NCBI RefSeq assembly: GCF_016919445.1
Contig: NZ_CP070356.1
Coordinates: 3,971,502-4,035,501, forward strand
DNA: 64,000 nt
Source of the DNA: Pseudomonas sp. PDNC002
GTDB taxonomy: Bacteria; Pseudomonadota; Gammaproteobacteria; Pseudomonadales; Pseudomonadaceae
Reading direction: 5' to 3'
A program made the position numbers and the translations under genes. The notes beneath the pieces were generated by a model, which was given only the letters and a program-made list of their open reading frames with translations, made no database searches and was not told the DNA's origin. Positions 6,332 through 17,053 of the stretch are shown one piece after another (position 1 is the first letter of the stretch; each line of letters opens with the position of its first letter).

Positions 6332-6405
6332 GGCTGAGTAGCAGAGTGGTTATGCACCGGATTGCAAATCCGTGAACGCCGGTTCGATTCCGACCTCAGC
6401 CTCCA
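6332..6405 (+). tRNA. tRNA-Cys (GCA), prophage integration site
   Basis: The 74-base gene has acceptor stem GGCTGAG/CTCAGCC, encoded CCA and anticodon GCA (6364-6366). The 3' half, from anticodon stem to CCA, is the left attachment repeat of a prophage remnant, so the gene is rebuilt across the integration point. The second copy at 16966-17014 carries only the 3' part. Confidence 0.96.
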
Positions 6406-6406
6406 A
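6358..6406. repeat. attL: left direct repeat of the tRNA-Cys prophage
   Basis: This 49-bp segment, from the anticodon stem to one base past CCA, is repeated at 16966-17014 with one mismatch (T at 6388, A at 16996, in the T-loop). It marks the left junction of a tRNA-integrated element; the broken integrase gene lies just inside it. Confidence 0.93.
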
Positions 6407-6410
6407 ACAG

Positions 6411-6445
6411 AAAGCCCCGTAGATTAAGCATCTGCGGGGCTTTTT
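6411..6445 (+). terminator. Rho-independent terminator after tRNA-Cys
   Basis: An AGCCCCG stem with partial pairing through the loop and a CGGGGCT arm is followed by TTTTT. It lies inside the prophage just past attL, and may end both the tRNA transcript and, on the other strand, the integrase message. Confidence 0.8.
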
Positions 6446-6516
6446 GCTTTCTGCCTTCCTCGCATCATTTCCGTTATTTCGAGATCGTTTCCGTTACACG
6501 CGCCCCACGCGACGGG

Positions 6517-7584
6517 TCAGCGAGTCGGTTTGACTACTTCGCCAACGCGGCGGTAGACCTTCTTGGTGATCTCTTCTTTGCTGTGGCCCAGCAGCTTGCT
6601 GGCGTCGCCGATGTCCTCGATTTCGCTCGCGGCCTTGGGTCGGACGTCGCTGAATACGAACGCCTTGATGCGCTCAGCCAACGGCTTGTCGTGGGCCTCG
6701 ATCGCGGCTGCTGCCGCCTGGTTGCGCGCTTCGTTCCAGCGGTTGACCAGCATGCGGTAGCTCAGGCGCAGCCCCCGACTGTTGGTGATCAGTGTCGAGC
6801 TGGTGATGCCGGCGAGCTTGCGGCGCTCCAGCAGACCGTCGATGAACTGGCCCAGCCCCGTGGGGGCTCCGTCGACGTGCAGGCGCACGCGCAGCTTTTT
6901 TGTGGTCTTGCCCGACCAGCAGGAAGTCCGCCGTCAGGTCGCCCGCCGACACTTTAAGGGTGTCCGCCGGCCGCTGGCCGGCAAGGTAGGCCATATCCAT
7001 GGCGTCCCGCAGCTCCTGGCAGGCCTGGGCGTAGACGGCGGACCAAACGTCGTTGCCCGCATAAAAGCTCCGTGGGCGCTCTTTATTGCGGCGGACCCCG
7101 CGCAGGGGTTGGCGCCGTCGTGGTAGCCCCATTCCCGTGCAAGGGTAAAGACGTGGGAAAGGATGGCAATCTCGCGATTGCCGCGTGTTTTTGCCGTCCG
7201 TGCATCCCGATAGCGCGCGATCACCTGGGGCGTGATTGCGCCGATAGGGGCTTTGTCGAAGGCTCTGCGCAGCCGGGGCAGCTCATATTTGAGGTTGTCG
7301 TCCTGGGAGCGCTTGGACTTGGTGGGGATGATCTCGTTTTCGTAGCGGTCGAACAGCTCCGACATGTAGCGGATGGTTTTCGGCGGGGTTGCCCGGGCGA
7401 GGCGTGCCCACTCCTGCAGTGCCTCGCCGAGGTCGGTCCCGAGGGGGATTTCCTTGACCGTGCCGTCTTCCTTGCGGCCGAGGTAGTAGTAGCCGACCCA
7501 TTCCTTACCTGATTTGAGCTTCCGGGTGCGCTTGAGCATACGGTAGGGAAGCTCTCGGTTTTCCGGTTTGCGCGGGCGTCCCAT
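6517..7584 (-). pseudogene. int: Tyrosine-recombinase phage integrase, broken by two frameshifts
   Basis: Three frames together give a full-length integrase of about 355 residues. The N-terminal part (MGRPRKPENREL to GANPCAG, 7584 to about 7099) holds the arm-binding and core-binding domains. A lost base in a C/G run near 7096-7099 shifts the frame, which continues through VRRNKERP and the first catalytic Arg (GQRPAD). A second shift near 6910-6920 leads to the last part, with LLGHS and the Tyr motif KKVYRRVG. The box-II region reads FSDVRPKAASE, so the usual His is not obvious. It was the enzyme for recombination at tRNA-Cys. The ATG at 7584 overlaps the preceding stop as TAATG. Confidence 0.88.
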
Positions 7585-7833
7585 TAGCTGACGTCCCTCA
7601 AGTCGAGCTGCCAAGGTTCCTCAACAGCGGCCGAGCTGGTGGGCTTCACCCCGGCTAGTTTCAGACGGGCGTAGATACGGCCGACGATGGGGCGGCCTGC
7701 AGCGTAGACTTCGTACACCCATCCGTTTGCCTTGAGCCATGCGATCTGGTGGGTACTGGGCCATTACCTGTAGCTCGGCTTCGGTCAGAAACTCAGCGGC
7801 GGGCTCGGTGCTGGTTGTCGCTGCGATGATCAT
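7584..7833 (-). pseudogene. DUF4224-like phage protein, frameshifted
   Basis: The gene starts MIIAATTSTEP and continues FLTEAELQVMAQYP. A single-base shift near 7750-7756 moves it to the frame reading IAWLKANGWVYEVY, AAGRPIVGRIYARLKLAG and ending LRDVS at 7584. This is the layout of small DUF4224 proteins found directly upstream of tRNA-targeting phage integrases. Its start overlaps the methyltransferase stop (ATGA) and its stop overlaps the integrase start (TAATG), so the three genes formed one coupled operon. The family name is from memory of the motif. Confidence 0.75.
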
Positions 7834-8225
7834 GCTTCGTCTCCAGTACCAAACAGATCGCCCTGGGCGCGCTCGTGCTGCGCCTGTTCCCATGCGTGGC
7901 TGATGCGGGCTGCGGCGATGGCGATGTAGCCCAGGGACTGCCCGTTTTCGTCGGTGTCGCGTTCGATGCCGATGAGGCGGAATCCTTCGCGCATGCAGGC
8001 CTTGCCGGTGCTGCCGCTGCCCATGAACGGATCCAGCACCAGACTGCCTGGCGGTGTAATCAGGCGGCACAGGTAGGCCATCAAATTGGTGGGTTTGACG
8101 GTGGGATGGTGGTTTTCGCTCGTGCGGTCAGTGTTGGCCGATTGGAACGAGCCCGGGTTCTGTTCACCGCTGGACCAGTTGAGCGTTCCGCGGGGCATGC
8201 CGTGGCAGCCTTCATTTATGCGCGG
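7830..8225 (-). pseudogene. C-terminal fragment of a phage DNA methyltransferase
   Basis: About 130 residues remain. They include HHPTVKPTNLMAYL and the AdoMet-binding motif LVLDPFMGSGSTG followed by GFRLIGIERD, as in the N4/N6 (beta-type) DNA methyltransferase class. The catalytic DPPY half, which comes first in this class, is missing. The sequence upstream of about 8225 is unrelated and AT-rich, so the 5' part was lost by deletion. An ATG at 8249 could start a short product, but it would lack the active site. The stop overlaps the next gene's ATG. Confidence 0.82.
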
Positions 8226-8347
8226 TAACCATGCACACCCACCACACACATCTAATTAAGTTAAGGATTTATATAGTTTTTTGTGTGTTGGGTGTGTGTT
8301 GGGTAGGTCGCTTGATGTGTTGGGTTGGCCGAGCTGGAGTTTTGACG
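8226..8347. promoter_or_regulatory. Divergent intergenic region at a probable deletion junction
   Basis: This short AT- and GT-rich stretch (TTAAGTTAAGG, TTTATATAG, then repeated TGGGT/TGTGTTGGGT) lies between the truncated methyltransferase and the Q-like gene. In an intact lambdoid phage this gap would hold recombination, replication and immunity genes. It is the likely scar of that deletion and may contain the promoter of the plus-strand late operon. Confidence 0.45.
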
Positions 8348-8707
8348 ATGATTCGAGCAATGGACGAACTGCTGCGGGTGTGGGCTTTCGAGTTCCATGG
8401 GCCGGGGCTGAGGCGCCCGGAGGGCACGGGCTGCGGCAATGTGATCGCGCTGCTGATGGACACCTGCGGCGAGTTAATCCGCAGCATGAACCGGGGCGGT
8501 AGCGTGCTGGTGGGGCAGGCGGCGGAAATCGAGATGATCATGAATCGCTATCTGCTGCCGCATAAGCTGCGGGAGCACTATCTGAACCGCCAGAGCATGG
8601 AGTACCAGAAGTGGGCTTATTGCCGGTGTAGCCAGCGAACGTTCTATCGTCGCCTGCGCGATGCGCACCTGGCGCTCCAGGGCATGCTGCTACGTCGTGC
8701 TGCATGA
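8348..8707 (+). CDS. Probable phage late-gene regulator (antiterminator Q/RinA-like)
   Basis: The 119-residue protein starts at ATG 8348, seven bases after a GGAG-type site. Its C-terminal third (YCRCSQRTFYRRLRDAHLAL) looks like a sigma region 4-type helix-turn-helix, as in phage Q/RinA/ArpU late activators. It precedes the lysis and packaging genes, where a late regulator is expected. I recognise the architecture and position rather than a specific family. A longer upstream reading would be hydrophobic and lacks a better start. The gene looks intact. Confidence 0.55.
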   Translation: MIRAMDELLRVWAFEFHGPGLRRPEGTGCGNVIALLMDTCGELIRSMNRGGSVLVGQAAEIEMIMNRYLLPHKLREHYLNRQSMEYQKWAYCRCSQRTFYRRLRDAHLALQGMLLRRAA

Positions 8708-8868
8708 GATATTGGCGGATGGAAGGATAAAAAATCCTTAAATATCAAAGGGGTTGAAAACGTATTCACGTTGATTGGAGGGCTGGCGTTGGCCTTTTGG
8801 CAAAGAGGGGGTACAAAGTAGGCATGGTGTTACCGGTTTGTCTTAAGGGCTCCGGTACGCAAATCAAG

Positions 8869-8895
8869 AAACCCGGCCGTCGTGCCGGGTTTTTT
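8869..8895 (+). terminator. Rho-independent terminator (possible Q target)
   Basis: A 7-bp perfect GC stem (ACCCGGC/GCCGGGT) with a 6-base loop is followed by a run of T's. It sits between the regulator gene and the late genes, where a terminator read through under antitermination would be expected. Confidence 0.75.
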
Positions 8896-8954
8896 GTTGC
8901 CTGCCTATTGATGGGCTCGGCGTGTGTCGGGCTTTGGGTGGGCGGTTGAAAGAG

Positions 8955-8994
8955 GGCGACCGTGGTCGGTGTAGTAGCACCGCCCACGGTCGCC
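8955..8994. repeat. Long inverted repeat (17-bp arms, 6-base loop)
   Basis: The left arm 8955-8971 (GGCGACCGTGGTCGGTG) pairs with the right arm 8978-8994 with a single mismatch, around the loop TAGTAG. No T-run follows, so it is not a typical terminator. It lies 86 bases before the com-like gene. Confidence 0.85.
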
Positions 8995-9080
8995 GACCTG
9001 CAGTCCGAGCTGCAAGCCAGCCTAGGCCCCCTTGCTCTCGAGAGCGCGGCGAGCCTAGCAGAACTGAATAGGCGTTGCAG

Positions 9081-9266
9081 ATGCTGAAGGATTGCCGCTG
9101 TGGGAAATGCAGCCGGTTGCTTGCCCGTATTGGGGAGCTGAGTGAAGTCCAGATCAAGTGTCCGCGCTGCCGGACGCTTAATCATGTGAGGGCCTTGAGC
9201 CTCGTCCAGACGCCTTTGAGCGATTCACGTTCGATTAACTCTGAAGGTAAATGCGAGGATCTATGA
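9081..9266 (+). CDS. Com-like zinc-finger translational regulator
   Basis: The 61-residue protein starts MLKDCRCGKCSRLLAR and has two CxxC pairs (CRCGKC and KCPRCRTLNHVRA), the pattern of the phage Mu Com family. Mu Com binds an RNA structure and switches on translation of the overlapping mom gene. Here the stop overlaps the next gene's start (ATGA at 9263-9266), the same coupled layout, but the downstream gene is an exported Ig-like protein instead of mom. A TTG two codons upstream (9075) is a possible alternative start. Confidence 0.75.
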   Translation: MLKDCRCGKCSRLLARIGELSEVQIKCPRCRTLNHVRALSLVQTPLSDSRSINSEGKCEDL

Positions 9267-10540
9267 AGCTTTCAACAACTTGTATTGCTGTATGCCTGGC
9301 GATCGGCTGGCTCTCTACTGTTCAAGCCGAAGAAACTGTCATGCAGCCAAGCGCGACTCAAGAGTCGGCTGTCGCTGAGCAGAAACAACTTCTGGGAGCT
9401 GCAGCAGGAGCTACTGGTTATGTGTGTGGGACTGGAACCAATATTCCTGCTGGGAAATATTTCAGTTACCTAGAGACAAATTATGCATATTGCCCGGGTG
9501 TAACTGTGCATTGGACGGATTTGTTCGATGGCGCGACGATTATGTATCAGAAAGATTTGCAGAATACAAAATCTGGACTGGTTATCAGTAAGGCTCGCTA
9601 TGTCAGTTACCCACAGGCGCCGGTTGAGCATTATCGCTTTGAGTTGGCCGCGCCAAAAGAACGCTTGAGGGGGTGTAGTACCTATACTCCATCCAATTGG
9701 ACTTATTCAGAGGAAATTGGTGCTGAATGCGGTAGCTTTAACTCTGTTGTTTTTCATGAGGTTGTCACCTCTGATTGGGAGGACTATAAAGGTCGAAGCC
9801 GACTGAAGTTGGTAAGTTATAATAGCGTCACTAAGATGACCGTAAAGGTAGAGGCGACTGGGGCCGGTATTTCCGATTCATTCTCTCAACAATACACTGA
9901 GACGATGGGCCTTCCGCTGTGGGTGTACGTGGATGCAGATAGTTTCAATAAAACCTTCAAGGACTACGCCCAGAAAAATGCCAACTTTAAGGTGACGGTC
10001 GATGCGTATATAGGTTCGCGCTACGCATACACCAAGACGTTCGAGAAGTCTGGATTTGAAATGCTCGGAATCAAACATCCTACCATGACGCTATCTGTTA
10101 ATCCGGTGAATGTTATTGAGGGTGATGTGGTTACTCGGAATTGGGAGTCGCAATATGCTGACTACTGTACCAGCAAGACTGGTGACCGCCTTGCGACCTC
10201 TGGTTCCTCGGTCACTGCGCCTGTGTACTCCTCCAATACCTATCAAATCTCCTGCACAGGCCTAGGTGGGACTGTAACTTCGAGCGTCTTTGTTAATGTT
10301 ATTCCAAAGCCAACAATGACCTTGGATGTGCAGCCACGTCAGATTCAGGCTGGACAAAAGGTCACTCGCTATTGGTCTTCTCAAAATGCTAGTCAGTGTA
10401 TGAGCAAGACCGGTGTTCCGCTGGCAACTTCAGGCGCTTGGGAAACTGATCCGTTGTACTTCTCTAATATCTATCAAATTTCGTGCTCTGGTCCCGGTGG
10501 CACAGTTACACAGTCGGTTGATGTCACAGTCGTTCCCTAA
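9263..10540 (+). CDS. Exported Ig-like-repeat protein, prophage moron
   Basis: The 425-residue protein begins with a signal peptide (MKLSTTCIAVCLAIGWLSTVQA). Residues 30-270 match nothing I recognise. Two tandem repeats of 77 residues follow, from about 273 and 350. Each begins PTMTL, has a core Trp and Cys (NWESQYADYC, YWSSQNASQC), SKTG..LATSG, and ends YQISC.G.GGTV, like PKD/Ig-like repeats of bacterial surface proteins. Codon and base use are visibly more AT-rich than the flanking phage genes, which suggests recent transfer. A terminator follows directly, so com plus this gene form an independent cassette. It is probably a lysogenic-conversion factor acting in the envelope; function unknown. 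Confidence 0.75.
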   Translation: MKLSTTCIAVCLAIGWLSTVQAEETVMQPSATQESAVAEQKQLLGAAAGATGYVCGTGTNIPAGKYFSYLETNYAYCPGVTVHWTDLFDGATIMYQKDLQNTKSGLVISKARYVSYPQAPVEHYRFELAAPKERLRGCSTYTPSNWTYSEEIGAECGSFNSVVFHEVVTSDWEDYKGRSRLKLVSYNSVTKMTVKVEATGAGISDSFSQQYTETMGLPLWVYVDADSFNKTFKDYAQKNANFKVTVDAYIGSRYAYTKTFEKSGFEMLGIKHPTMTLSVNPVNVIEGDVVTRNWESQYADYCTSKTGDRLATSGSSVTAPVYSSNTYQISCTGLGGTVTSSVFVNVIPKPTMTLDVQPRQIQAGQKVTRYWSSQNASQCMSKTGVPLATSGAWETDPLYFSNIYQISCSGPGGTVTQSVDVTVVP

Positions 10541-10555
10541 CTTGTGATATGCGGA

Positions 10556-10582
10556 AAAGCCCGGCGGTATGCCGGGCTTTTT
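10556..10582 (+). terminator. Rho-independent terminator after the moron
   Basis: The stem AAAGCCCGGC/GCCGGGCTTT with loop GGTAT runs into T's, 15 bases after the moron stop. It isolates the com/moron cassette from the holin genes. Confidence 0.88.
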
Positions 10583-10642
10583 CATGTTGAATGTTCGGAT
10601 TTTTCTCTGCGATCAATACAAATGCAAATTGAGGAGGCCTTC

Positions 10643-11023
10643 ATGGAAGGCGGACCACTTACCGGTCCTGGTCTAGCGACGTTGGCTACGGCCGCAGCTG
10701 CAATTCTGGGTGTCCAGGCCGACGGTTTCTTGGGCGTAGTTGCTGGGGCGTTCTGTGGAGCTGTGGTTTACATGCTGAGTCTCCAGGCGGACCCCGTCAT
10801 TGCCAAGACTCTGTATTTCATCGTCGCTTGGTTGGCTGGTGTCCTCACCGCGGGCTTCGCTGCTGATGCCATCGGATTAGTGATGATGGGTAGTGCGGCG
10901 GCTATCCCGGATGGGGTCGGTGCGTTGCTGACCAGCGCGATTATTGTGCGGCTTCTGCAGTACCTGATCAGCAGGCCACTGCAGAAGATATTCTCTGATG
11001 CGCAACGCTGGAGAAAACGCTAA
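10643..11023 (+). CDS. Putative phage holin-like membrane protein
   Basis: The 126-residue protein starts at ATG 10643 behind GAGGAGG. It has about three hydrophobic segments (GVVAGAFCGAVVYML, YFIVAWLAGVLTAGFAA, a GLVMM...LLTSAIIV region) and a basic C-terminal tail (SDAQRWRKR), the usual class I holin layout. It sits upstream of terminase, where many Pseudomonas phages keep holins. The stop overlaps the start of the next membrane-protein gene (TAATG). No endolysin gene remains nearby. It would form lethal inner-membrane lesions in a functional phage. Confidence 0.6.
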   Translation: MEGGPLTGPGLATLATAAAAILGVQADGFLGVVAGAFCGAVVYMLSLQADPVIAKTLYFIVAWLAGVLTAGFAADAIGLVMMGSAAAIPDGVGALLTSAIIVRLLQYLISRPLQKIFSDAQRWRKR

Positions 11024-11400
11024 TGGATGCTCTGATGGAGTCGATGCACTGGCTGCTCCAATGGCTGCATCCGCTGCCAGGGCTGCCATTGCTGGCGACA
11101 GTGGTCGATATGGCTGCGAGCGGCGGAATTTTCTACTTAGTTGCCTTGCACTATCGAGGTCCGGTTATTAGGCGCTGGATCACATGGCTGGCGTTTCTGC
11201 TTGCGTTGTCTTCTGGGCTTACCTGCCTTTTCGATGTTGCTGTGCTCGCAGGTTGGGAGGGCGCCAGCCGTTTGGCTTACGTCGCAAATACGGGGATCAA
11301 CTGCATGCTGTTCGCTGCCCTGGTGGCGGTCCAGGGGAATGTGGGGAAGTTACTTAAAAGATCTGCTTGGGATGGTCCCTCAAGCCTCGGACCAAGTTGA
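11023..11400 (+). CDS. Putative second phage holin/membrane protein
   Basis: This 125-residue protein has three likely membrane helices (LLATVVDMAASGGIFYLVAL, WITWLAFLLALSSGLTCLF, GINCMLFAALVAVQ) and a basic tail. Its ATG overlaps the previous stop, so it is translationally coupled. Together they look like a holin pair, or a holin plus an accessory lysis membrane protein. I assign the role by topology and position only. Confidence 0.55.
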   Translation: MDALMESMHWLLQWLHPLPGLPLLATVVDMAASGGIFYLVALHYRGPVIRRWITWLAFLLALSSGLTCLFDVAVLAGWEGASRLAYVANTGINCMLFAALVAVQGNVGKLLKRSAWDGPSSLGPS

Positions 11401-11548
11401 CCATCTCTGCCGTCGGGGACCCTGTGGCACCCGCCAGACACGGGCGTTCAGACCCGCGATTTCGCGTTAGTGGCTGGGGTTGAGACTTAGTGAACTGCGG
11501 TTCACCGGTTCACTCGACCAGTTCATTTCCGGTTAACAGGTGCCCTCA
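11401..11548. promoter_or_regulatory. Gap before terminase with GTGAAC/GTTCAC repeats
   Basis: The 148 bases contain the inverted repeat GTGAAC-TGCG-GTTCAC (11490-11505), followed by another GGTTCAC and a GGTTAAC. They could be a binding site near the packaging (cos) region or an RNA structure. No gene is visible. Confidence 0.4.
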
Positions 11549-12039
11549 ATGACACTGATGCTCAAGTCCGAGTACGCGGACAGCCGCGGCTGGTCACGCT
11601 CCTACGTTTCCAAGCTCGCCCGCGAGAACCGCCTGGTGCTCACTGCCGACGGCAAACACGTCGACGCCGCAGCCACCGGCGCGCTGCTGGAGGCGACCGC
11701 AGATCCCAGCAAGGCCGGCGTCGCCGCACGCCACGAAGCGGCCCGCCTGGAGAGCGGCGTCACCGCCCACCTGACCCCCGACGCGCCGCCGCTGCCAGCA
11801 CTCGAGCCGACAACTCCCGGCGTCCACGACCTCCAGAAAGCCCGCGCCCACCGCGAGTACTACCTGGGCCAACTGGCCGAGGACGAATTCCGCAAGCAGC
11901 GCGGCGAGCTGGTGGAGCCGTCGACGCCGGCGCATTCAACGCCGCCCGAACCACCAGCGAACTGGTCCTGGGTCTGCCCAAGCAGCTCGCCCCAGAGCTC
12001 GCCCCCGACGGCGGTATTACCTTCACCGACACGAGTTGA
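11549..12039 (+). pseudogene. Phage terminase small subunit (Nu1-like), frameshifted
   Basis: From ATG 11549 the frame reads MTLMLKSEYADSRGW with the winged-helix-like DNA-binding start (SRSYVSKLARENRL), then QKARAHREYYLGQLAEDEF. After RGELVE at about 11917 the frame is lost. Coding continues one frame over as AVDAGAFNAARTTSELVL, LPKQLAPELAPD and ends at TGA 12037-12039. One missing G in a GG pair explains the change. The shift now fuses the N-terminal part in frame to the large-subunit gene, which is an artefact of decay. The small subunit recognises cos/pac DNA for packaging. Confidence 0.85.
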
Positions 12040-12043
12040 ACAC

Positions 12044-14047
12044 ATGCAGCACTACGCCGACGGTGCCGCCGCGCATCGTGCGGCATTTGCGCGGGGCCTC
12101 GAGCCCGATCCCGCGCTCTGGATCGATCAGTGGGCCGACGAATACATGCGCATTCCGCGCGATACCGGCGCCGCCGAGCCCGGCCCATACCGCACTGACC
12201 GCACACCCTATGCCCGCGAGCCCATGCAATGCCTCTCGCCAGCGCGCCCTTGCCGCCGGGTGGTGACCAAGGTCGCCTCGCAGCTGATGAAGACGCAGAT
12301 CGCACTCAACTGGATCGGCGGCTGCATCCACATGGCGCCGGCCAATATCCTGATGCTGCTGCCCAGCCTCAACCTGGCGAAGCGCGTCTCCGCCCGCCTG
12401 GACAAAACCATCAAAGCCACGCCGGTCCTGCGGGAGAGGGTGGCCTCGCCGCGTTCCCGCGACTCGCGCAACACAATGGACACCAAAGAGTTCGAGGGCG
12501 GCGCGCTGTTCGCCACCACCGCCGGCTCCGCCGCTAACCTCGCCGAGCTGGCCGCGCGCTTCATCTACGGCGACGAGATAGACCGTTGGGACGTCGACGT
12601 CGACAACGAAGGCGATCCCATCGAGCTGGCCGAAACCCGTGGCTCCACGTTTGGCCGCAACGCCAAGTTCTATTTCTCCAGCTCGCCCACCATCAAAGGG
12701 GCGAGCCGGATCCAGGATCTGTTCGACACCAGCGACCAGCGCAATTACTACATGCCCTGTTCGCACTGCGGCTTCATGCAGGTCCTGGAGTGGTCGCGCC
12801 TGCACTGGGACGGCGGGTAGCAGATGGTCCAGTACCGCTGCGCCAACCCTGACTGCGAATGCCTGATCGAGGAGCACCACAAGGCGGCCATGCTAGCCGC
12901 CGGCGAGTGGCGCGCCCACGCAGCCGGTGACGGCGAGACGGTCGGATTTCACCTCAACGCGCTGTATGCCCCCTTGGGTTGGGTCAGTTGGACGGCCCTG
13001 GCCAAACAGTACGACAAGGCTGTGCTCGCCCAGAGCAGGGGTGACCTCGAACCCATGCAGGTGTTCTACAACACCCGACTGGCCGAGGTCTGGGACAGCG
13101 CCCAGGAACAAACCAAGGCCGGCGTCCTGATGGCTCGGGCGAGAGCAGAGACCTACGTCCTCGGCACCCTGCCAGTCGGCGCCCTCATGCTCACTTGCGC
13201 GGTTGACGTGCAGGGCAACCGGTTGGAAATGATGGTTCTGGCCTGGGGCGTTGGGATGGAGCGCTGGGTCGTAGATCACCAGGTGATCATGGGCGACCCT
13301 GCGGAGACCCACACCTGGGCTGCCCTTGATGCGCGCTTGCAGGCCCGCTACCAGCACCCGGCCGGGCCGACCCTGCCGATCCTCGCTACCGCCGTGGACT
13401 CTGGCGGCCATCACACCGACGAGGTTTACCAGTTCTGCCGCGTGCGCCGGTGGCGCAACGTCTTCGCCATCAAGGGGGCGAGCAAGCCGGGCCGCCCGGT
13501 GATTGCCCAGCGCCCCTCGCGCGTCGACGTCACCTGGCTCGGCCAGGTCGAACGCAATGGCGCTGAACTCTGGATCGTCGGCACCGACACCGCCAAGGAC
13601 TGGATCTATAACCGCTACAACCTGACCGAGGGCCCCGGCGCCTTGCACTTCGCGCGGGCCCTACCCGACGACTTCTTCGACCAGTGCGTGGCCGAGCGCA
13701 AAGTCGCCCGCTACATCAAGGGACACAAGCGGATCGAGTGGGTGAAGGGCAAGGCCGAGCGTAACGAAGCGCTGGACCTGCTCGTCTACAACCTCGCCAT
13801 AGCCCACTACCTGAACATCCACCGCTACCAGCAACACCAGTGGGAGCAGGTAGCCAACGCCTTCCGGCAGAGCAACCTGTTCGAGCAGCCCGTCCAGCAA
13901 CAGGCGTTACCGCCCGCCGATGATGAGCCGCAACCGGTACCCCCAAGCCCGGCCCCCGAGCCGCCAACCACACCACCACAGCCGCCGGTGCGCCAAGCGT
14001 TGCCCCAACGGCGCAGCTCGCACAGTGGCTACCTGAAAAGGCGTTAA
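12044..14047 (+). pseudogene. Phage terminase large subunit (lambda GpA family) with an in-frame stop
   Basis: The natural start is ATG 12044, five bases after the small-subunit stop. The product of about 667 codons matches lambda GpA in order: an ATPase region (VASQLMKTQ, a poor Walker A, then SPRSRDSRNTM), FIYGDEIDRWD, YFSSSPTIKGASRI, a zinc-like MPCSHCGF, then IKGASKPGRP, GTDTAKDWIYNR and RNEALDLLVYNLA of the nuclease half. A TAG at 12818-12820 cuts it after HWDGG, and the frame continues at once with MVQYRCANPDCEC. The stop separates the ATPase from the nuclease, so packaging should fail. Confidence 0.9.
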
Positions 14048-14050
14048 CCC

Positions 14051-14263
14051 ATGGCCTACACCCAAAGCGACCTGGACGCGATCGATCGCGCGATCGCTAC
14101 AGGCGAGCGATCCGTCCGCTTCAGCTCACCCACTGGCGACCGCACCGTTGAGTTCCGCTCCATCACCGAACTGAAGGCCGCCCGCGACCTGATCAAGGCC
14201 GAACTGGCGGAAAGTCCACCGCGTCGCATCGTCCGCCTCTACCACGGCGGCAAGGGGTTGTAG
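14051..14263 (+). CDS. gpW-like head-tail joining protein
   Basis: The 70-residue protein is the length of lambda gpW. Its pattern YTQSDLDAIDRAIATGERSV and TVEFRSITELKAARDLI matches the family. It starts three bases after the terminase stop and four bases before portal, the lambda order A-W-B. gpW helps plug the filled head before tail attachment. It appears intact. Confidence 0.88.
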   Translation: MAYTQSDLDAIDRAIATGERSVRFSSPTGDRTVEFRSITELKAARDLIKAELAESPPRRIVRLYHGGKGL

Positions 14264-14267
14264 CGCA

Positions 14268-15740
14268 ATGAGCCGTTACCGCCCCGACCCCGCCAGGCTG
14301 GCCAAACTCACGCGAATCCAGAACAGCTACGAAGGTGCGGCGGAGGGGCGGCGCTCGCAAGGCTGGGACGCCTCTGACCTTGGCATGAACGCCTTGCTCA
14401 TGCCAGCGCTGAACAACCTCCGCAGACGCTCTCGCGCCGCCATCCGCAACGACCCATACGCCGGCGGCGCCATCACCCGCCGCGTCAGTAATCTGATCGG
14501 CACTGGCATCACACCACGGCCGAGAACAACCGATAGCGTCCTCCGCGAACAACTGCAGGAGCTCTGGGATGACTGGACAGATGAAGCCGACTCAGATGAC
14601 CGCACCGATTACGGCCTGCAGGCGCTGGTAGCGCGCACCGTAGAAGGGGCGGGAGAGTGTTTCATCCGATTCCGCCCACGGCGGCTCGAGGACGGCTACG
14701 CCGTGCCCCTGCAGCTCCAGTTGCTGGCACCCGAGTTCGTACCCAGCGACAAGAACGAACTGACCCCGAGCGGGAACATCATCCGAGCCGGTATCGAGTT
14801 CAACCCACAGGGCCAGCGAGTCGCGTATTACTGCTATCGCACACACCCGAGAGACCCAACCGCCTCAATCGGCGGCTACAACCAGGTGCTGCGGGTGCCC
14901 GCCGAACAGATGCTGCACATATACGAGCCCCTGGAGCCCGGCCAGCTGCGCGGCGTGCCGCGCCTTGCCCCGGTGCTCAAGCGGCTGCGCAGCCTGGACA
15001 ACTACGACGACGCCGTGCTGTTCCGGCAGGAGGTCGCCAACCTGTTTACCGGATTCATCCGGCGCGACGCTCCCGATGGCGGCCCGCCGACTTTCGATCC
15101 GGTCAGCGGCAAACCGATAGAGACAACACACGACGGTGTCCCTATGGCCGGCCTGGAGCCCGGTACCATGCAGGAGCTTTTACCCGGTGAGAACGTCGAG
15201 TTCTCCGACCCTCCGGACGCCGGCAACAACTACCCGGCTTTCATGCGGCAGCAACTGATGGCCGCCGCAAACGGCCTGGAGATGTCCTACGAGCTGTTCT
15301 CCGGCGACCTGCGCGACGTCAACGATCGCGGCTTGCGCGTGGTGCTGACCGAGTTCCGCCGCCGCTTGGAGCAACTCCAGTTTGGCGTCTACGTCCACCA
15401 GCTGTGCCGGCCCGTCCGTGCCGCCTGGCTGGATATGGCCGTCCTCTGCGGCGCCGTGAAACTGGCCGACTACGCCACCCGCCGCCGTGAATACCTGCGC
15501 ACCCGTTGGGTTCCCCAGGGCTGGGCCTACATTCACCCCGTCCAGGACGTGCAATCCAAGCTGCTGGAAGTCAACGCCGGTTTTGCCTCTCGCAGCGAAA
15601 TGGCCCTGCGCACTGGGTACGACGCCGAAACCATCGACAAGGAAAACGCCGAAGACGCCAAGCGCGCCCAGTCGCTGGGCCTCAACTACAAGACCCTCAC
15701 CAGCCTGGCCCCCGAGCCGGAGGAGAAGGAAACCCCATGA
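14268..15740 (+). CDS. Phage portal protein (lambda GpB family)
   Basis: The 490-residue open gene looks intact. It has the portal features RNDPYAGGAITRRVSNLIG near residue 65, a central region with QMLHIYEPLEPGQLRGVPRL, and the conserved stretch SYELFSGDLRDVNDRGLRV. Portal forms the dodecameric DNA channel at the capsid vertex. Its stop overlaps the next start (ATGA at 15737-15740). With terminase broken and other head genes absent, it should have no function here. Confidence 0.92.
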   Translation: MSRYRPDPARLAKLTRIQNSYEGAAEGRRSQGWDASDLGMNALLMPALNNLRRRSRAAIRNDPYAGGAITRRVSNLIGTGITPRPRTTDSVLREQLQELWDDWTDEADSDDRTDYGLQALVARTVEGAGECFIRFRPRRLEDGYAVPLQLQLLAPEFVPSDKNELTPSGNIIRAGIEFNPQGQRVAYYCYRTHPRDPTASIGGYNQVLRVPAEQMLHIYEPLEPGQLRGVPRLAPVLKRLRSLDNYDDAVLFRQEVANLFTGFIRRDAPDGGPPTFDPVSGKPIETTHDGVPMAGLEPGTMQELLPGENVEFSDPPDAGNNYPAFMRQQLMAAANGLEMSYELFSGDLRDVNDRGLRVVLTEFRRRLEQLQFGVYVHQLCRPVRAAWLDMAVLCGAVKLADYATRRREYLRTRWVPQGWAYIHPVQDVQSKLLEVNAGFASRSEMALRTGYDAETIDKENAEDAKRAQSLGLNYKTLTSLAPEPEEKETP

Positions 15741-16513
15741 CTACCACGCAACGGCTGCGGATCTACAACAAGGTCCCCGGCGCCCCAACCGAGAACGCCC
15801 AACACTGGTACAGCATCCAGGCCCGCGCTGAAGGCAGCACCGACCCCATCGAGGTCTATGTCTATGGCGAGATTGGCGTCTGGGGCATCACCGCCAACGA
15901 CTTCATCCGCGACCTGGTGGCAGCCGATGACGGTACCAGCCAGATCGTCGTCGCCTTCAACACCATCGGCGGCGACCTGTTCGACGGCCTAGCCATCCAT
16001 AACGCGCTGCGTCGCCTCGGCGCCCGCGGTACCGCTCGCATTGACTCCCTGGCCGTCGGCGCGCTGCTCCCGGGCATCGGCACGCTGCTCGGCTCGCTCG
16101 TTGTCCCTGCTATCAGCAGCCCTGCTGCTCCATTGGGCCAGGTCGCACGCTCCCTGGAGGCACTGGCGCCCCCCAGCCCGGCCCCGTTGCTGGTCAACCC
16201 CGTCGAGCCACCGCCGCCGCAGGTTGACCAGCAGTTCTCGTTCTCTCCGCAGGTATCGCTGACGGTGCAGGGGGACGTGAAAGCTCCGGCCCAGATGGCG
16301 CGTGATCTTGAGCCACACCTGCGGCGACTGTTCGACGAGTTCGCGGCGCTGCAGGAGCGCCGCAGCCTGTACGACAAACCACACATCTTTCCATCCTCGC
16401 CGTGGGTGATCGATAGCACTGCACGCGGATCAGCGTCGAACGCCAGTGTGCCTCGCGTGCAACTGCCAGCCCGCTGCAGGGCCTGGTCGAGCACGATGTA
16501 TTGCGACGCCTGA
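15737..16513 (+). pseudogene. Prohead ClpP-like protease fused by deletion to the tape-measure C-terminus
   Basis: Residues 1-107 are the start of a ClpP/S49-type prohead protease (IEVYVYGEIGVWGITAND, VVAFNTIGGDLFDGLAIHNALR). At about 16055-16060, just before the catalytic Ser would appear, the sequence turns into tape-measure C-terminus: GALLPGIGTLLGSL, a Pro-rich linker, then DLEPHLRRLFDEFAAL and SLYDKPHI. The open frame continues past a second junction near 16388 into unrelated sequence. The junctions imply loss of the capsid, head-tail, tail-tube and most tape-measure genes in one event. The chimera has no expected function. Confidence 0.82.
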
Positions 16514-16620
16514 TGAAACCGCTCGCCGGCCAGCTCCTCGATCGCGAACGAATACGCGGCCGTAATCAGCTCGGCCAGTTCGAACCACTCGTCGACGTCG
16601 ATCACCCCGCGCGTCAACAT
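16380..16620 (-). pseudogene. Truncated phage gene of unknown function
   Basis: Reading from ATG 16620, about 80 residues look like real protein (GVIDVDEWFELAELITAAYS, FAIEELAGERFHQASQYIVL). After that the frame runs antisense through the tape-measure remnant. The ATG overlaps the stop of the 36-residue upstream gene, so the two are coupled. The gene's 3' end was lost at the same deletion junction that cut the tape-measure gene. I do not recognise a family. Confidence 0.6.
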
Positions 16621-16724
16621 CCCCGCGCCCCCTCGGAGAGGATGCGGCGGTGGCTGTCGGGTCCGATCATCAGGTCGCGGCGTTTGTTCAGCAGCGCGTG
16701 CCACTCGGTCAGCTCTGGATGCAC
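16614..16724 (-). CDS. 36-residue phage protein behind a LexA box
   Basis: A GTG start at 16724 gives MHPELTEWHALLNKRRDLMI through EGARGC, ending at 16614 and overlapping the next start. The composition (acidic/basic helix, TEWHALLNKRRD) looks coding. It lies 17 bases downstream of a LexA-type box on the same strand. Function unknown; it may be the leader gene of an SOS-induced prophage operon. Confidence 0.5.
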   Translation of the reverse strand: MHPELTEWHALLNKRRDLMIGPDSHRRILSEGARGC

Positions 16725-16731
16725 GGCATGG

Positions 16732-16769
16732 GCTCAATATGCTGTCTATGCATACAGTATATTGAGCCA
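16732..16769 (-). promoter_or_regulatory. LexA-type SOS box in a larger palindrome
   Basis: CTGTCTATGCATACAG at 16742-16757 fits CTGT-N8-ACAG. It is the centre of a longer near-palindrome whose outer arms are GGCTCAATAT and ATATTGAGCC. It lies just upstream of the minus-strand 36-residue gene and its truncated partner, so this prophage operon is likely induced by DNA damage. Confidence 0.7.
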
Positions 16770-16965
16770 GGATCGAGCCGGCTATGCCTGGGCGACGCGC
16801 TGCGCGATCTCCAGCTGGATGGCGGCGCAAGGGTGTCAGGCACCTAAAAATCATTTCCATTACCAAATTTACCCCTGCGGGGCTCTAGGGCAGCAGAGCG
16901 GCACTTGCACTTGCGTTTCGGAAATGATCGTGGCCTAATGCATTGATTAATTTGGTTTTTGTGGT
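16770..16965. other. Right-end prophage sequence before attR
   Basis: About 200 bases lie between the LexA box and attR. I see no convincing gene. The last 70 bases are AT-rich (CATTGATTAATTTGG), as is common next to attachment sites where integration factors bind. Confidence 0.4.
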
Positions 16966-17014
16966 CGGATTGCAAATCCGTGAACGCCGGTTCGAATCCG
17001 ACCTCAGCCTCCAA
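16966..17014. repeat. attR: right direct repeat of the tRNA-Cys prophage
   Basis: This is the second copy of the 49-bp tRNA-Cys 3' segment, with A at 16996 in place of T. It lacks the 5' half of the tRNA and so is not a gene. It restores the chromosomal sequence that once followed tRNA-Cys. Confidence 0.93.
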
Positions 17015-17017
17015 TAG

Positions 17018-17053
17018 AAAAGCCCTGTAAATCCAAGATTTACAGGGCTTTTT
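17018..17053 (+). terminator. Rho-independent terminator after attR
   Basis: The stem AAAAGCCCTGTAAATC/GATTTACAGGGCTTTT with a 4-base centre runs into T's. It was probably the original terminator of the tRNA-Gly/tRNA-Cys unit before prophage insertion. It differs in sequence from the phage-borne terminator at 6411. Confidence 0.88.

Follow-up and report, generated by a model that had tools for sequence, protein, structure and literature searches.

What does a homologue of Com, the translational regulator of phage Mu, control when the gene behind it is not mom? The question is raised by a 64,000-nucleotide stretch (hereafter the window) of the 6.39-Mb genome of Pseudomonas sp. PDNC002 (G000:C1:3971502-4035501), where a com gene overlaps the gene of an exported protein with two Ig-like repeats (Table 1). 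We propose that com, together with an RNA operator in its 3' end, is probably a mobile switch of translation whose cargo can be exchanged. What was computed from genomes is the operator, its confinement to genomes that carry com, its independence of the reading frame, its covariation and the different cargo found behind near-identical com-operator stretches; from these we infer Com binding, activation, its timing and the role of the cargo.

Table 1. Features of the com locus (positions are those of the window).
Feature	Position	Strand	Remarks
tRNA-Cys	6332-6405		holds one copy of the prophage-flanking repeat
Defective prophage remnant	6358-17053	.	about 10.6 kb, bracketed by direct repeats
PA0613-family gene	8231-8707	+	within the prophage remnant, 5' of com
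com	9081-9266	+	Mu-type zinc-ribbon RNA-binding regulator (RNA binding predicted); 61 aa, CxxC...CxxC
Com operator, predicted	9187-9226	+	covariance model R1, 40.7 bits, genome E = 2.7e-6
Hairpin 1, GGGC[CUUGA]GCCU	9190-9202	+	folds alone to -3.9 kcal
Hairpin 2, CGC[CUUUGA]GCG	9211-9222	+	folds alone to -2.5 kcal; 3 pairs only
CUCUGAAGGU, ribosome-binding stretch before ATG 9251	9239-9248	+	predicted pairing with hairpin 2 core in longer free RNA
Exported protein	9263-10540	+	425 aa; 429 aa if the in-frame ATG 9251 is used
Two Ig-like repeats, 77 residues	10079-10537	+	residues 273-349 and 350-425
Terminator hairpin	10554-10582	+	3' of the exported gene; fold z -4.8
Holin-like gene	10643-11023	+	PF16931 9.4e-14, phrog_198; directly after the exported gene cassette
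Long ORF	14268-15740	+	in the prophage remnant

The remnant that contains the locus is flanked by two direct repeats of 88 nt that are 84% identical, one of which lies in the 3' end of the tRNA-Cys gene. Its minus strand carries an integrase gene, with partial profile matches and an internal stop, and a methyltransferase fragment. On the plus strand lie two holin-like genes (the second slightly below the Pfam cut-off), a terminase large subunit gene interrupted by an in-frame stop at 12818 and a protease-like fragment below its Pfam cut-off. The terminase (11540-14047) and integrase (6517-7614) frames hold one internal stop each. The element is thus a decayed prophage with one part intact, in which the frames for Com, the exported protein and the first holin are all still open, and the first-pass annotation, which had spoken of a moron in a lysogen, described it only loosely. 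The terminator that it had placed at the end of the cassette was found. A second terminator-like hairpin lies 5' of com at 8869-8892; it was scored on the minus strand and has a T run 3' on the plus strand as well. Between the upstream gene and com there is also a near-perfect inverted repeat (8955-8994, fold z -5.3), which could be a regulator site or a terminator. A promoter scan of 8600-11100 detected no sigma-70-like promoter on the plus strand, and no Rfam family came near its cut-off in 8700-9400.

The com gene is intact and its product is a genuine member of the Com family. Pfam PF10122 (Zn_ribbon_Com) matches residues 1-42 at E = 2e-18 (66 bits, cut-off 22.9), and two PHROG Com families match it as well, phrog_6417 ('translational regulator') at 4.7e-17 and phrog_13819 at 7.6e-5. 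The zinc finger had been called Com-like from its cysteine pattern, with the caution that the lack of a structural match to Com would undo the proposed control; the homology holds. Searches of solved structures gave no meaningful match to Com or to the exported protein. A second module is present in the same genome (L099, G000:C1:125300-134300), with com, operator, an exported protein and a holin: the gene after this other com (G000:C1:129793) encodes an exported protein that clusters with lectins and is followed by a holin-like ORF.

The exported gene is as AT-rich as first described. Its GC content is 0.478 and its GC3 0.473, against 0.60-0.65 and 0.76-0.84 in uvrC, pgsA, galU and the ORF at 14268. 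The two repeats, whose starts are spaced by 77 residues, are identical at 46 of 76 positions; the signal peptide was assigned by eye. No Pfam family matched the 425-residue protein, and PHROG 2155 (virion structural protein) matched the repeat part only (3.1e-9). The single-sequence AlphaFold model was poor (pLDDT 45), and Foldseek with this low-confidence model returned largely Ig-type domains, with query TM-scores of 0.30 or less among the rows listed, which at most backs the Ig fold class for the repeats. Relatives of the protein were found neither in viral contigs, phages or plasmids nor in wider genome contigs (one query, which detects close relatives only), and its own genome holds no second copy. 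Among 398 genomes of the family Pseudomonadaceae no full-length relative appeared, the two matches besides the window covering the Ig part only. With the full-length cargo found nowhere else, the concern that other genomes might carry the two genes apart does not apply; the Ig repeats alone occur apart from com, in two sister genomes only. There, the cargo repeats match, at 46-48% identity, an exported ORF with two repeats in G008 (186 aa) and a similar ORF in G016. These host-type two-repeat ORFs (L003:1402-1962; L117:7791-8543, minus strand) are without com, and their neighbours, read by eye, are cytidylate kinase and ribosomal protein S1. Judged by these similarities, the cargo seems to be a host-type repeat joined to an unfamiliar N-terminal part. 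Two other families of exported com cargo were compared with this N-terminal part by profile, and no convincing kinship emerged (probability at most 2.4%). The 425-residue protein is a new com partner.

A partner other than mom had been taken to be unusual at first pass, and this was not borne out: many kinds of gene stand behind com in Pseudomonadaceae, as is partly in print. Com is common in the family, with 93 matches listed in 74 of the 398 genomes. Eighty-four of these loci, the window included, were compared (four copies in G359, G062, two in G035, G077 and the partial match G265:6087988 were left out), and the next gene was surveyed at 83, one locus having none. This gene is very varied, and the list made at the suggestion of the first-pass annotation includes bacteriocins, glycosyl hydrolases and DNA-modification genes. 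Twenty representatives, each standing for a cluster or a single gene, were scanned with Pfam, and cluster members were assigned by BLAST. The scans identified 1) DNA-modification types (D12, C5 and N4/N6 DNA methyltransferases and Mom), 2) enzymes (GH5 cellulase, GH68 levansucrase, alginate lyase, GH19) and DUF642, and 3) an ABC-ATPase/GNAT protein, B-lectin, colicin M, an S-type pyocin DNase and a HEAT-repeat protein. The remaining representatives, exported families among them, had no Pfam match over the cut-off. At four loci (L072, L080, L103 and L007; Pfam scan on L103) com is followed by a long ABC-ATPase/GNAT-like protein, and in L007 a formyltransferase-like gene comes next; such loci are possibly a DNA-modification system. 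Proteins of 107-120 residues with no Pfam match (one member scanned) are another recurrent partner, in L042, L043, L046, L053, L069 and L074. With its holin-like gene directly after the cargo, the window fits a layout of com, one cargo gene and a nearby lysis gene. On a test with five query proteins this layout is no general rule, a holin-like ORF lying within 2.5 kb of com at 16 of 83 loci.

Cargo can differ behind almost the same com. In eleven pairs of loci the stretch that runs from com to the start of the cargo is at least 88% identical, and the cargo belongs to different families. Between L041, which has colicin M, and L042, this stretch is 98% identical, against 53% for the first 200 nt of the cargo (about 55% is expected at random) and 59% for the sequence before com. 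Two of the eleven pairs are also alike (91%) in that upstream region.

The stretch that travels with com contains a candidate RNA operator. Mu Com recognises 5'-CC(N)2-3GAG-3' in the loop of a hairpin with a closing C-G pair, as SELEX, gel shift and SHAPE have shown, and the site lies close to the structure that holds the mom start (Nowacka 2019, PMC6483171). We searched the 130 nt after the zinc ribbon for a CC(N)2-3GAG loop on at least three pairs. At least one such hairpin was present in 82 of the 84 com loci, L100 and L115 being the two without, and at least two in 71. The corresponding frequencies were 4.8% and 0.19% in 8400 dinucleotide shuffles, and 5.3% and 0.25% in 5676 control segments taken elsewhere on the same loci. 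The window has two, and they share with com-mom the CC(N)2-3GAG loop, the closing C-G pair and the position shortly before the start of the gene to be controlled. A hairpin was likewise present at all 14 com sites examined in 13 phage records (Mu, B3, JD024, Phipami28, Komp_PAO1_1, DVM-2008 with two sites, Smp131, AP3, Mana, Mcat1, Mcat5, PhAER-1 and PhAER-5). The stems show covariation. We aligned 56 of the 62 unique sequences, a few of which, with short loops, were misplaced by MAFFT. In this alignment 91.5% of the pairing cells were paired, against 83.6% in shuffles, and the covariation score of 0.200, of a kind that relatedness inflates, was reached by none of 500 shuffles (0.079).

The distance from the hairpin to the next start falls into two common classes. 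In the shorter class are 19 modification genes, at 25-32 nt, and 11 of the 14 phage sites, at 26-32 nt (27 in Mu). Of the 51 remaining loci, 35 have 58-72 nt and the rest from 38 to 430 nt; at three ABC-ATPase/GNAT loci the start chosen by our script lies 174-177 nt from hairpin 2. The window, at 38 nt (ATG 9251) or 50 nt (ATG 9263), is outside both common classes. Many of the longer-distance loci (L041, L042, L043, L046, L053 and similar ones) have a third hairpin, of variable sequence, between operator and start, with a mean z of -1.58 in 50 loci scored and half of them below -1.5. This hairpin is not evident in the window (z -0.4, a rough value because the script used hairpin 1 as reference).

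A two-hairpin covariance model, R1, was built from 56 sequences, that of the window among them, and used to search whole genomes. In the genome of the window it detected two strong sites, both at the two com genes (2.7e-6 and 8.4e-6), the next match being at 0.026. In the 398 genomes there were 85 matches at E<=3e-5, of which 77 lay within 250 bp of a listed com match and eight did not, and all 65 genomes with an operator at this threshold carry com. At E<=3e-4 there were 93 matches, 81 linked and 12 unlinked among the com matches listed; seen from the genes, 81 of the 93 listed com matches have an operator beside them and 12 are without. Since the terms refer to the com matches listed, a few unlinked sites, and genomes counted as free of com, could have com elsewhere. 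One unlinked site, in G055, was discarded as a chance match inside a coding gene of a genome without a listed com. In the eleven others hairpin 2 is exact, and hairpin 1 is exact in five and degenerate in six. A degenerate com remnant was found at three of these sites and no convincing one at the others. Nine of the eleven lie 59-91 nt before an ORF whose start resembles those of known com partners (DUF642-like, D12, 320-aa, lectin-like, GH19-like or short proteins, as judged by the sequence start). The start chosen by the script at L129 is 38 nt away, although a later one agrees with the partner family; L127 has a second site, from which the next ORF is reached after 140 nt. Some unlinked sites are 600 bp to 16 kb from a com gene, and others are on another contig or 0.7 Mb off. 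Since eight of the 85 operators have no com match beside them, Com action in trans is suggested for operators without an adjacent com. A wider proposal is more tentative, and we put its chances slightly below even: Com may be the trans activator of a multi-locus regulon, in which com-operator modules and com-less operators would be portable RNA switches for exported enzymes, bacteriocins, lysins and DNA-modification genes, the operator hiding the ribosome-binding site until Com binds. To these the window would add an exported Ig-repeat protein.

In the switch that we favour, com and its 3' end would form a small regulatory module whose mRNA carries tandem CC(N)2-3GAG hairpins. Without Com, part of the operator would be paired to the ribosome-binding region in front of the next gene, whose output would be kept low. 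Late transcription of the prophage or tailocin would lead to Com being made, and Com would bind and stabilise the hairpins, so that the ribosome-binding region would be freed and the cargo turned on. In the window the cargo lies beside a holin gene, and its expression would coincide with lysis.

Predicted folds were compared with this scheme. When several loci were folded without constraint, their operators paired with the ribosome-binding region, as CGCCUUUGAG does with CUCAAUAGGUG in L042. In an ensemble test of 73 loci, the 17 nt before the start paired with the operator at a mean of 0.443, against 0.305 when the segment was swapped from another family and 0.196 when it was shuffled; pairing was above the swapped control in 19 of 23 families (p 0.0013) and above the shuffled one in 20 of 23 (p 2.6e-5). 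Pairing of this kind across the families fits a switch in which hairpin-stabilising Com breaks an inhibitory pairing. A duplex test gave weak differences (native -13.1, swapped -11.6 and shuffled -9.4 kcal; family p 0.09 and 0.013). In the window the ensemble value was 0.46, against 0.43 swapped and 0.38 shuffled, and the pairing of the ribosome-binding stretch of Table 1 did not clearly exceed that of swapped controls. When short pieces of the window are folded, a rival hairpin at 9216-9234 is favoured. Enforcing the Com hairpins in the window cost 9.2 or 3.3 kcal and closed the start codons, the openness of ATG 9251 falling from 0.56 to 0.18 and that of ATG 9263 from 0.60 to 0.43. In 82 relatives the same constraint opened the ribosome-binding region (0.43 to 0.52) but not the start codon (0.48 to 0.45), and in the Mu control enforcing the Com hairpin made no change in openness. 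Folding of 9200-9330, to look for the start-occluding stem suggested in the first-pass annotation, showed no unusual stability (z -0.49). For an inhibitory structure that hides the start and is opened by Com, as in com-mom, the comparison across families gives support, and neither the window nor the Mu control gives a clear sign. Because pairing in the window is about that of swapped controls and the start codon closes, the switch is backed by a trend among families and is unproven for the window. Two things count slightly against it: how the window folds, and that hairpin 1 is partly lost where the operator is unlinked.

The conserved stretch could have been kept for other reasons. Most loci read it in frame as a variant of SLxxSPLSD, as would be the case if it were maintained for the amino acids of the Com tail and not as RNA. 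However, among the 70 loci with the usual pair of hairpins the second one falls in com frame 0, 1 and 2 in 49, 10 and 11 cases, and the 21 loci in another frame keep the hairpin while encoding an unrelated peptide (the types by frame are SPLSD, NAGER and ERPRA). In L102 hairpin 2 is positioned 3' of the com stop, and the unlinked sites show no intact com coding, so that this explanation is largely refuted and retains very little probability. Ordinary translational coupling, in which ribosomes ending com would restart on the exported gene with the Com protein not involved, also has a low probability. The ATGA overlap of the two ORFs in the window (exported start ATG 9263) and the purine-rich stretch 5' of that start speak for it. 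The overlap is not conserved, however, the called next start lying from -83 to +173 relative to the com stop, and at the unlinked sites there is no intact com from which coupling could start. The first-pass annotation had made ATGA a key feature, ascribing it to com-mom of Mu as well; it is incidental here and wrong for Mu, where the overlap is about 50 nt (in the Mu record com ends at L118:657, and the GTG at L118:608-610 fits the GUG start of mom given in PMC6483171). What stands of its proposal of com-type control before an exported gene is the Com homology and a com-type RNA site; the unusual partner and the ATGA feature fall away.

A stronger rival, which we still consider unlikely, sees a relic in the hairpins. 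On this view phages and tailocins would have spread com and its 3' end as a handy donor of promoter and start site, and Com control of the cargo would have been lost. The folding evidence, weak in the window, agrees with this. So does work on levansucrase, where the region is called a phage-associated promoter element and where, in the one test known to us of com with cargo other than mom, a stop codon in com on the lscB plasmid is reported, as data not shown, to have left levan unchanged (PMC3899960). Against a relic, which should decay, loops and stems are kept across reading frames and by covariation, and hairpin 2 is exact in all eleven unlinked sites. Moreover, going by a table in the same paper, the lscB test strain probably kept other com copies, and the test could have missed an effect of Com because these copies could supply it in trans; the negative outcome nevertheless stands as published. 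We therefore retain the translational switch as the preferred reading.

That com can precede genes other than mom is already known in print (PMC6240691, PMC3899960). In Pseudomonas it has been described before lectin-like and other bacteriocin genes and a lytic enzyme (Ghequire 2018, PMC6240691), whose authors left the role of Com outside mom open, and before levansucrase and glycosyl hydrolase genes (Srivastava 2012, PMC3899960). For lscB/C the region was named a phage-associated promoter element (PAPE), and com was judged not to be involved in lscB expression (PMC3899960; Khandekar 2014, PMC3973379). We found no description of Com operators outside mom in the open-access literature, and an earlier mention elsewhere is possible. 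Such an operator would make it possible to look for the cargo genes of prophage and tailocin regions by rule, and it may account for part of what has been called the levansucrase promoter element. Natural variants with the hairpin and without com make the role of Com outside mom testable. An old phage switch may in this way have become a portable on-switch for other genes.

Compared with known systems, the locus of the window is closest to com-mom of Mu in having a Com protein and a CC(N)2-3GAG hairpin in the 3' part of com, before the controlled start. It differs in its cargo, an exported Ig-repeat protein instead of a DNA-modification enzyme, in having two hairpins where Mu has one (ATGC[CTGCGA]GCAT, 27 nt before the GTG) and in a start 38 or 50 nt away. 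With the com-linked bacteriocins it shares a com directly before low-GC cargo in a prophage or tailocin region, whereas its cargo is a different protein, with no Pfam match, and the section on com in that review (PMC6240691) mentions no RNA site. Like the PAPE of lscB/C, which precedes extracellular enzymes, it is a prophage-derived stretch with com. The PAPE was described as a promoter element, whereas the present stretch is a predicted RNA operator, and the two levansucrase loci of our set, L070 and L079, carry Com-type hairpins.
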